Source: Marmoricola sp. OAE513 | GTDB taxonomy: Bacteria > Actinomycetota > Actinomycetes > Propionibacteriales > Nocardioidaceae | Length of the DNA stretch: 64,000 nt | Assembly: GCF_040546585.1 (NCBI RefSeq) | Contig: NZ_JBEPOC010000001.1 | Span: forward strand, 2,294,001-2,358,000 | Reading direction: 5' to 3' | Part shown: positions 2-2,811 of the stretch, piece after piece | How positions within the stretch are numbered: position 1 is the first letter of the stretch | Layout: every line of letters begins with the position of its first letter | Notes under the pieces: model-generated | Told to the model about the DNA's origin: nothing | The model's input: the letters and a program-made list of their open reading frames with translations, nothing else | Databases searched by the model: none | Translations under genes and position numbers: made by a program

Positions 2-871
2 CTCGGCATGATGCTCCTGCGCAAGCCGTGGGTGCTCTGGCACCAGGACGTGTACGCCGTCGCGATCAAGGCCTTCGCCGGCGAGAAGCTCGGGCGCGGG
101 TTCCGCCTCGTCGCGGCGCTGTTCACCATCGCCGAGCGCTGGGTGTCGCGCCGCGCTGCTGCCGTGGTGGTCATCGCCGACTCGTTCGTCGACGTCCACC
201 GCGAGTGGGGCACCGCGCACAAGACCACGGTGATCCCCAACTGGGCACCCCTGGACGAGATCTTCCCGGTCGACCGGCACAACGCCTGGTCGGCCGAGCA
301 GCAACTCGACGACACCCGCACCCTGCTCTACTCGGGCACGCTCGGCCTGAAGCACAACCCCGCCCTGCTCGTCGGCGTCGCCGCGGCCGTCCGCGACGCC
401 GGCACGCCGGTGCACCTGGTCGTGGTGAACGAGGGTCCGGCCGAGGCGGTCCTGCGCGACGAGGCCGCTCGCCTCGACGTCCCGCTCACGCTGCTGCCGT
501 TCCAGCCCTACGAGCGGCTCTCGGAAGTGCTCGGCAGTGGCGACATCCTGGTGGTCCTGCTCGAGCAGGACGCCGGCGCGTTCTCGGTGCCGTCCAAGAC
601 GTTGTCCTACCTCTGCGCCGGCAGGCCGGTGCTGGGGTTCATGCCGGCTGAGAACTTGGCCTCGCAGCTCGTCAACGACGTCGAGGGCTGCGTACTCCCG
701 CCGAACGAGGGTTCATTGCCCGCCGCCGCGGCCTGGGCCGCCTCGGTCCTGGCCGATGACGAGGAGCTGGCCCGGTTGGGCAAGCAGTCCCGGGCGCTGG
801 CTGAGCGCGAGTTCGCGCTCGAGGGGTGCGGGAATCGCTTCGAGGAGATCTTGGTCCGCGTAACGTCTTGA
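2..871 (+). CDS. glycosyltransferase, WcaI/GT4-like (5' truncated)
   Basis: The reading frame is open to the window edge, so the true start lies upstream. About 289 residues are visible where GT4 enzymes usually have about 400. The visible part is the C-terminal Rossmann half: a YSGTLGLKHNP nucleotide-binding turn, then a VPSKTLSYLCAGRPVLG segment typical of the WcaI-like sugar-nucleotide site. It probably transfers a sugar onto a lipid-linked exopolysaccharide intermediate at the inner face of the membrane. The neighbouring polymerase and tyrosine autokinase at 4887-7629 support this. The acceptor and donor cannot be read from the sequence. It ends in TGA at 869-871. Confidence 0.8.
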   Translation, partial: LGMMLLRKPWVLWHQDVYAVAIKAFAGEKLGRGFRLVAALFTIAERWVSRRAAAVVVIADSFVDVHREWGTAHKTTVIPNWAPLDEIFPVDRHNAWSAEQQLDDTRTLLYSGTLGLKHNPALLVGVAAAVRDAGTPVHLVVVNEGPAEAVLRDEAARLDVPLTLLPFQPYERLSEVLGSGDILVVLLEQDAGAFSVPSKTLSYLCAGRPVLGFMPAENLASQLVNDVEGCVLPPNEGSLPAAAAWAASVLADDEELARLGKQSRALAEREFALEGCGNRFEEILVRVTS

Positions 872-931
872 ATCGTGGACTGTCGTCTCACGATGCAAGA
901 ACTCGGTTTCCGGGGCGTTGTCCGTTCCGCC

Positions 932-937
932 TAGGCT
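932..937 (+). promoter_or_regulatory. -10 box of the leader peptide transcript
   Basis: TAGGCT is followed after 6 nt by ATG at 944, the spacing expected if transcription starts at the A of the start codon. No convincing -35 element is visible. Confidence 0.55.
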
Positions 938-943
938 GATGCC

Positions 944-1021
944 ATGTTCTCGACCATGCTGACGAAGCGCCGTGCAGTGGACCACTGCCGCGTGCACTCG
1001 GCACTGTGTCCGTCGTTCTGA
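944..1021 (+). CDS. cysteine-containing leader peptide (25 aa), putative attenuator peptide
   Basis: A 25-codon frame starts at ATG 944 and stops at TGA 1019-1021. After a few residues it reads LTKRRAVDHCRVHSALCPSF, the pattern of the short leader peptides found before sulfur genes in actinobacteria (LTxRRAVDxxRVxSxLC). Cysteines are at residues 15 and 22. The -10 box TAGGCT is 6 nt before the ATG, so the mRNA is probably leaderless. A second in-frame ATG at 956 is possible. The peptide precedes the DUF4395 / sulfurtransferase / DUF1416 operon by 139 nt containing hairpins. Known mycobacterial polycysteine leaders act as cysteine-responsive attenuators, and the same role is inferred here. Confidence 0.65.
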   Translation: MFSTMLTKRRAVDHCRVHSALCPSF

Positions 1022-1086
1022 CGGGACGCCCCAGCCTCTTCAGCGGCAGTCGTAGAACAGGACTGTCCGGGCCTGACCAGCCCGCC

Positions 1087-1105
1087 GCGATCGTTGCGCG
1101 ATCGC
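1087..1105 (+). promoter_or_regulatory. hairpin between leader peptide and operon
   Basis: GCGATCG, loop TTGCG, CGATCGC forms a perfect 7-bp stem. A smaller GGGC/GCCC stem at 1068-1082 lies just upstream, so alternative folding is possible. This is the natural place for translation-coupled attenuation, but the fold is not proven. Confidence 0.4.
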
Positions 1106-1160
1106 ACGGCTCCGCGTCCCGCCGCCGACCGGCCCGTCAGTCCACGTCAGGAGAAAACCC

Positions 1161-1670
1161 ATGAGCACCACCCCGAACGAGATCGATCCGCGTGGTCCGC
1201 GGTTCACCGCGGGTGTCACCCTCGTGCTGTTCGCGGCCGTCCTGCTGACGGCCCCGAGCACCGCAGCCGTCGTGCTGCTCGCCGTCCAGACGGCGTTCTT
1301 CGCGATCGGCGCCGGCAGGGGCGTGCAGTTCACGCCCACGGCGTACGTCTTCAAGAAGCTGATCCGTCCGCGGCTCTCGGCGCCCTCGCACCTGGAGGAC
1401 GCACGGCCGCCGCGGTTCGCCCAGACCGTGGGCCTGGTGTTCACGGTGGTCGCCCTCGGCGGCTTCCTGGCTGACCTCGACACCCTCGGGTTCGTCTTCT
1501 CGGCCTTCGCCCTGGCAGCAGCGTTCCTGAACTCCGTGTTCGGGTTCTGCCTCGGGTGCGAGATGTACCTCCTGATCCAGCGCCTGAGGCAGGGCGCATC
1601 CCGCAACACCCACGCATCAACCCACGACTCCACCAATGCAGCAGCGAACAAGGAAGAAGTAACCGCATGA
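1161..1670 (+). CDS. DUF4395 domain membrane protein
   Basis: A 169-residue membrane protein with about four hydrophobic segments (roughly 18-35, 36-52, 90-112 and 115-140). It has a conserved CxxC in FCLGCE near residue 132. SD AGGAGA lies about 8 nt before ATG. DUF4395 proteins are regularly paired with rhodanese-type sulfurtransferases. The CxxC could shuttle thiols or sulfane sulfur at the membrane, which is inference. The stop overlaps the start of the sulfurtransferase in ATGA, indicating translational coupling. The Cys leader upstream suggests control by cysteine supply. Confidence 0.85.
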   Translation: MSTTPNEIDPRGPRFTAGVTLVLFAAVLLTAPSTAAVVLLAVQTAFFAIGAGRGVQFTPTAYVFKKLIRPRLSAPSHLEDARPPRFAQTVGLVFTVVALGGFLADLDTLGFVFSAFALAAAFLNSVFGFCLGCEMYLLIQRLRQGASRNTHASTHDSTNAAANKEEVTA

Positions 1671-2515
1671 GCCGCGAATCCGCACTCGTCACCGCCGACT
1701 GGGTGGCCGAGAACCTCGACAACCCGTCGGTCGTCCTGATCGAGGTCGACGAGGACACCACGTCCTACGACCGCAGCCACATCCGTGGCGCGATCAAGCT
1801 CGACTGGACCACCGACCTCCAGGACCAGGTCCGTCGCGACTTCGTCTCGAAGTCCCAGTTCGAGGCGCTGCTGTCCGAGAAGGGCGTCAGCAACGACCAC
1901 ACCGTCGTCCTGTACGGCGGCAACAACAACTGGTTCGCCGCGTACGCGTACTGGTACTTCAAGCTCTACGGCCACGAGGACGTCAAGCTGCTCGACGGCG
2001 GCCGCAAGAAGTGGGAGCTCGACGCGCGCGAGCTGACCGACGAGCCGGTCAAGCTGGAGCCGACCACCTACACCGCGAAGGACCAGGACCTCTCGATCCG
2101 CGCCTTCCGTGACGAGGCCGTGGCCGCCATCGGCGTGCACAACCTGGTCGACGTCCGCAGCCCCGACGAGTACGCCGGTCGTCTGCTGGCTCCGGCCCAC
2201 CTCCCGCAGGAGCAGTCCCAGCGGGCCGGTCACGTGCCGACCTCGATCAACGTCCCGTGGAGCAAGGCGGCCAACGACGACGGCACCTTCCGCAGCGACG
2301 CCGAGCTGAAGGAGATCTACGGCGAGGCCGGTCTCGACGACAGCAAGGACACCATCGCGCTCTGCCGCATCGGTGAGCGCTCGTCGCACACCTGGTTCGT
2401 CCTCAAGGAGCTGCTGGGCCACGAGAACGTCAAGAACTACGACGGCTCCTGGACCGAGTACGGTTCCCTGGTCGGCGTTCCGATCGCCCTCGGCGACGAG
2501 CCGGGCGAAGCCTGA
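1667..2515 (+). CDS. thiosulfate sulfurtransferase (rhodanese, CysA2/SseA type)
   Basis: A 282-residue tandem rhodanese. The N-terminal inactive domain covers about residues 1-140. The catalytic domain carries Cys233 in ALCRIGERSS, which would hold the persulfide during transfer of sulfane sulfur from thiosulfate to a thiol acceptor. ATG at 1667 was chosen because of SD AAGGAAGAAG and the ATGA overlap with DUF4395; in-frame codons upstream lie inside that gene. The pairing with a DUF1416 protein matches mycobacterial cysA2-sseC. It is probably cytoplasmic and serves sulfur recycling or cysteine metabolism. Confidence 0.92.
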   Translation: MSRESALVTADWVAENLDNPSVVLIEVDEDTTSYDRSHIRGAIKLDWTTDLQDQVRRDFVSKSQFEALLSEKGVSNDHTVVLYGGNNNWFAAYAYWYFKLYGHEDVKLLDGGRKKWELDARELTDEPVKLEPTTYTAKDQDLSIRAFRDEAVAAIGVHNLVDVRSPDEYAGRLLAPAHLPQEQSQRAGHVPTSINVPWSKAANDDGTFRSDAELKEIYGEAGLDDSKDTIALCRIGERSSHTWFVLKELLGHENVKNYDGSWTEYGSLVGVPIALGDEPGEA

Positions 2516-2811
2516 TGTGCGGCGCGACTGCCGGCGGTCTTTCCCTCGACGGGATCGACGTGGCCAAGGAAGCGATCATCCAGGGCCAGGTGACCCGGGG
2601 TGGCGAACCTGTCGGTAGCGCCTACGTACGTCTGCTCGACAAGACCGGGGAGTTCACCGCCGAGGTCCCGACCTCGGCGACCGGGCACTTCCGGTTCTTC
2701 GCGGGTCCGGGTGACTGGACCCTGCGGACGCTCGCACCGCAGAGCGACCCGGTCGACAACACGGTGACCGCCGCCATCGGCGTCGTCTCCGAGCTCGAGA
2801 TCGCGCTCTAG
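2515..2811 (+). CDS. DUF1416 protein (SseC-like)
   Basis: A 98-residue protein beginning MCGAT, with a beta-rich GQVTRGGEPVGSAYVRLLD core like a carboxypeptidase-regulatory/transthyretin fold. The family (mycobacterial SseC) is almost always encoded directly after a CysA2-type sulfurtransferase. Its biochemical role is not established. The start overlaps the previous stop by one base (TGATG). A strong terminator ten bases after the stop ends the operon. Cys2 is conserved in the family as I recall it and may accept sulfur, which is speculation. Confidence 0.88.
   Translation: MCGATAGGLSLDGIDVAKEAIIQGQVTRGGEPVGSAYVRLLDKTGEFTAEVPTSATGHFRFFAGPGDWTLRTLAPQSDPVDNTVTAAIGVVSELEIAL

Follow-up and report, generated by a model that had tools for sequence, protein, structure and literature searches.

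In mycobacteria, a Cys-rich leaderless uORF precedes cysA2/Msmeg_5788 (PMC4633059), and in M. smegmatis ORFs whose Cys codons are contiguous adjust the expression of the genes behind them to the cysteine supply (PMC9031893, PMC9094748), through a mechanism termed translation attenuation (PMC13236596). Several NCBIfam models describe leaders of this kind: NF042933 represents the Ms5788A family ahead of cysA2/MSMEG_5788, NF042936 the Ms4527A family ahead of nirA/MSMEG_4527 in mycobacteria, and NF042934 generic putative leader peptides of actinobacteria (cis_reg_atten). In Rhodobacterales, the uORFC-8-2 motif is found ahead of cysS (PMC8632094).

The window, that is, the whole 64,000-nt stretch of Marmoricola sp. 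OAE513 DNA analysed here, carries a leader that, judged from its sequence, is a real, sub-threshold relative of the Ms5788A kind and probably an orthologue of the Ms5788A leader of M. smegmatis. Its nearest family is NF042933, with which it shares the LTKRRAVD.CR core, the predicted leaderless start and the place ahead of DUF4395/sulfurtransferase genes. Since the match (E 7e-10, 38.4 bits) misses the 45-bit cut-off, the leader is probably overlooked by standard annotation; three other Nocardioides-type leaders score 37.7-40.6 bits against the same model. With NF042934 it has in common a 19-residue core and its nature as a short ORF ahead of sulfur-related genes, but its score of 25.5 bits lies just under the cut-off of 27 bits, as does that of a paralogue in the same genome (23.6 bits), while some orthologues pass. 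Conserved Cys codons in a uORF with a cysteine-related gene downstream are also features of uORFC-8-2, which differs in its two tandem Cys codons, the dominance of UGC and the presence of an intrinsic terminator (PMC8632094).

The leader ORF, its promoter and the operon downstream

The features of the locus are listed below in window coordinates.

865..900 (+), pair of operator-like palindromes at 865-880 (GTCTTGAATCGTGGAC) and 885-900 (GTCTCACGATGCAAGA), each a degenerate copy of GTCTC-N6-GAGAC
932..937 (+), -10 box TAGGCT, 6 nt upstream of the leader ATG
944..1021 (+), predicted leaderless leader ORF, MFSTMLTKRRAVDHCRVHSALCPSF plus stop
971..990 (+), hairpin within the leader frame, CG-GCAG...CUGC-CG (RNAalifold consensus)
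986..988 (+), Cys-15 codon TGC
1007..1009 (+), Cys-22 codon TGT, proposed sensor codon, invariant in homologues
1022..1121 (+), C-rich, G-poor, rut-like stretch with no intrinsic terminator
1149..1153 (+), Shine-Dalgarno sequence AGGAG of the DUF4395 gene
1161..1670 (+), DUF4395 gene (PF14340, E 2e-41)
1667..2515 (+), sulfurtransferase gene with two rhodanese domains, CysA2/SseA type (PF00581, E 3e-33; NF008557 below its cut-off)
2515..2811 (+), DUF1416 (SseC-like) gene (PF07210, E 2e-37)

As the first-pass annotation had claimed, a frame of 25 codons runs from the ATG at 944 to the TGA at 1019-1021 (sequence and ORF list of the window), and the -10 box stands at leaderless distance from it, so that transcription is predicted to start at A944 or an adjoining base. 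This spacing, which points to a leaderless start of the Ms5788A type, is kept in relatives. TAnnnT is found 6-7 nt upstream of the start codon in 62/62 homologues lying within 900 nt of DUF4395, a count somewhat favoured by a choice of start codons that gave preference to such a box, and the same geometry is present in 18 of 19 congeners.

The three downstream genes, whose ends overlap, follow the leader directly, in the location that Ms5788A-type leaders hold ahead of the cysA2 operon. We surveyed 81 loci (80 DUF4395 loci and the window); in 73 of them the same operon is preceded by a homologous leader, other gene orders included. It lies within 900 nt of DUF4395 in 62 loci and farther upstream in 11 more; among the latter, the three with ORFs read well enough all have the sulfurtransferase gene first. 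The leader goes with the operon rather than with one gene. For eight of the 81 loci the flank that was read holds no clear leader; at least two of these (L052, L078) end at a contig edge, and L064 has a weak candidate. Searches of 23 other genomes of the genus returned a homologue in 22.

Differences between leaders fall mostly at third codon positions, synonymous change being free. Among Nocardioides-type sequences, pN/pS is 0.27 in the leader frame but 1.04 and 2.89 in the two alternative frames, indicating that the leader peptide itself is under purifying selection. The conserved element reads LTKRRAVDxCRVxSxLC, its final Cys codon being UGU. The first-pass annotation had proposed kinship with mycobacterial cysteine leaders, and absence of the frame from related genomes would have told against it; the Ms5788A family match, the wide conservation and the selection on the frame all speak for this kinship.

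Upstream of the leader promoter, comparison of window positions 865-900 with the matching place in loci L003-L082 reveals tandem GTCTC-N6-GAGAC palindromes, whose strict form occurs there in 27 of 73 relatives versus 0.7% of shuffles; the palindromes of the window, being degenerate, do not match the strict pattern. These candidate operators suggest that an additional transcription factor may control the operon. Separately, a palindrome of type TTAGTCGACTAATCTCAGG between leader and DUF4395 is common to L007, L009, L016, L024, L069 and L079 and absent in the window; it may be an additional internal promoter or operator.

The genome contains a second leader, STWLVTRRHVDLGRTGSAMCPAR, on the minus strand at C1:3579513-3579563, also with TGT. 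It matches the Ms4527A family NF042936 weakly (23.6 bits, cut-off 45). The gene behind it probably encodes a ferredoxin-dependent sulfite reductase, a name read from the sequence, the first 60 residues having been scanned with no Pfam match. The paralogue is a separate leader with its own operon, and the window leader is nearer to Ms5788A than to Ms4527A.

Cysteine codons of the leader

The mycobacterial-type relatives have a C-terminal Cys tract, unlike the window leader, in which Cys codons are not contiguous. Its only cysteines are Cys-15 and Cys-22, two and separated, as had been noted at first pass. Cys-15 is encoded by TGC in 59 of the 60 homologues having this residue and is replaced by Gly in 13 of 73 (for example RRVVDYGR; L026, L029, L038, L043, L045, L047, L050, L051, L056, L060 and L075-L077), the last Cys of these leaders remaining TGT.

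Cys-22 is the one universal Cys codon among the 73 operon leaders. This cysteine, nine residues after a conserved Asp (D+9), is encoded by TGT in 73/73 homologues; its presence in all of them is partly due to a search pattern demanding a Cys near the end, which leaves the choice of codon unaffected. TGT also occupies D+9 in 19/19 congeners and in 75/79 leaders of the wider NF042934 family (63/67 distinct), which precede several different sulfur-related genes. Three of the four exceptions are leaders with a GGCCC tract and a TGT two codons earlier. As related leaders are non-independent, these counts stand without a p-value. The background is strongly the reverse: in the conserved Cys motifs that the downstream genes carry, TGC is used 208 of 214 times (~ 97%), and it makes up 108 of the 119 Cys codons in long ORFs of the window, against 11 TGT.

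The constraint at Cys-22 looks like one on codon choice, because the bases either side of the codon vary among relatives and a search of the downstream RNA for partners of the UGU region gave no enrichment in pairing. Bacterial Cys tRNA has the anticodon GCA, so that UGU is read by wobble. Taken together, the codon pattern marks the single UGU-22 codon as the likely cysteine sensor. An alternative stall signal suggested at first pass, the C-terminal CPSF, fell away as unconserved, this ending being present in no relative; relatives end in CRMS, CRMR, CRPC and similar sequences. Some leader-like peptides of the same family stop short of the usual last Cys (L133, L154 and L155, e.g., MPRNGLTRRLHIDLLRVSSAY).

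Read-out of the leader and rival explanations

We give a probability of roughly 75% to the leader being a cysteine-responsive attenuator related to the Ms5788A leader, with UGU-22 as its sensor and Rho as the most likely read-out. Frame conservation, peptide selection, promoter geometry, UGU invariance and C>G skew are the observations on its side, along with the same-genome paralogue with TGT ahead of a probable sulfite reductase. Counted against it is the presence of two Cys codons and no tract, so that the tested mycobacterial precedent is not identical. The cysteine response would hold by analogy with M. smegmatis, and stalling, Rho action and a contribution of the nascent chain are likewise put forward conditionally. 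Transcription would start at the leader ATG, and ribosomes would translate the leaderless ORF. With ample Cys-tRNA, they would reach the stop codon and leave, exposing C-rich, G-poor RNA and lowering downstream expression, most likely by Rho-dependent termination. With scarce Cys-tRNA, a ribosome would stall four codons short of the stop, the Cys-22 UGU occupying its A site, and would shield the start of the C-rich RNA, allowing expression of the DUF4395-sulfurtransferase-DUF1416 operon. Decoding of UGU by wobble, together with the conserved nascent chain (LTKRRAVDxCRV), may make one codon an effective pause site.

As expected of a Rho-dependent attenuator, the leader ORF is followed by C-rich, G-poor RNA, mildly so in the window itself (skew +0.11, modest). 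In the 100 nt past the leader stop, C exceeds G in 68/73 loci, with a mean skew of 0.171, and in 79/79 leaders of the wider family, with a mean of 0.246. Control regions upstream of 76 other genes, with starts assigned by a simple script, display a mean skew of -0.013, with 39% positive. The stretch resembles a Rho loading region, C>G skew being a correlate of Rho sites rather than proof of one.

The stalled ribosome might instead act on translation, by preventing an RNA structure that hides the Shine-Dalgarno sequence of DUF4395. Such relief of masking is reportedly what a stalled ribosome does in M. smegmatis, and this record for mycobacterial relatives makes the mechanism a real possibility here, if one that we lean against. 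With a ribosome modelled at Cys-22, mean accessibility of the Shine-Dalgarno sequence rises slightly (+0.039, s.e. 0.019); the effect is equal with the ribosome at the stop codon and almost nil in the window (0.44 to 0.47), which tips the balance neither towards unmasking nor away from it. The gap RNA is unconserved and barely more folded across relatives than shuffles (mean z -0.76), and the UGU-22 region, as noted above, lacks an enriched downstream partner. We consider the Rho read-out more likely than masking.

Selection at the peptide level is more than a pure codon-counting attenuator requires, and it is compatible with a nascent-chain-dependent stall. In its strongest form, this would be an arrest peptide, with the nascent chain in the exit tunnel sensing a sulfur compound, cysteine or another, whatever the state of tRNA charging. 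Amino-acid conservation extends well beyond Cys with synonymous change free, and a ribosome with codon 22 in its A site would hold the basic and Asp residues in the upper tunnel. However, invariance of UGU, not UGC, at codon 22 points to decoding, and the C-terminal Cys tracts of mycobacterial-type relatives are as expected for tRNA sensing; we regard an arrest peptide as unlikely.

A transcription attenuator of the classical kind, built on alternative hairpins plus an intrinsic terminator, comes close to the picture drawn in the first-pass annotation, which placed two hairpins before the DUF4395 gene. Local stems do exist in 1044-1105, but their standing as a functional feature was not borne out. 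From the leader stop into the gene, 154 nt of RNA fold no better than shuffles (z -1.0), the first 80 nt of the gap give z +0.36, and the gap stems do not align with relatives. No U-tailed intrinsic terminator was found after the leader; with the gap stems unconserved as well, the locus does not fit a trp-type design of terminator and competing antiterminator. Rfam returned no relevant match. The evidence at this site does not support attenuation by hairpins, and we rejected the downstream hairpins and a terminator as functional elements; the classical design appears highly improbable. A hairpin around the stop codon is found in the closest relatives, but was rejected as a family feature, being at chance level across the family. 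Covariation, which had been proposed as a check on leader and hairpins, is seen to some extent in the weak hairpin at 971-990 within the frame. The five-pair core of that hairpin is paired in 90.5% of cells against 84.8% in shuffles, with covariation of 0.290 against 0.175; as the covariation comes essentially from one column pair, partial conservation is no more than suggestive.

That the frame arose by chance, or owes its conservation to an antisense gene or DNA element, is scarcely credible: short ORFs are common in GC-rich DNA and several antisense ORFs overlap the leader, but selection is frame-specific, start and -10 box are conserved together, and the peptide belongs to a known family.

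Implications for the wider leader family

Elsewhere in the wider family, a leader reading VTDTxVRLWRRVHMDLVRYAGCVCRPSC precedes a cysteine dioxygenase gene (L106, L107 and L121-L125; PF05995 match on the one scanned). Cysteine dioxygenase downstream of some wider-family leaders fits induction by starvation poorly, because the gene is catabolic.

For actinobacterial cysteine leaders in general, a bolder and rather doubtful proposal is that one wobble-read UGU at D+9 and the nascent peptide form the sensor, acting via Rho and not hairpins; the tandem tract would then be a mycobacterial elaboration rather than the basic design.

At the strength given to the main reading, the locus would extend cysteine leader attenuation from mycobacteria to leaders of Nocardioidaceae that score below curated cut-offs. 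The near-invariant UGU at one cysteine is a sharp and easily tested feature of the wider family, and the C-rich stretch behind the leader hints at a read-out through Rho, which is directly testable; a specialist may expect neither the codon invariance nor the C-rich stretch. If one wobble codon together with the nascent chain does sense tRNA charging, this would depart from the usual tandem-codon design of attenuators.
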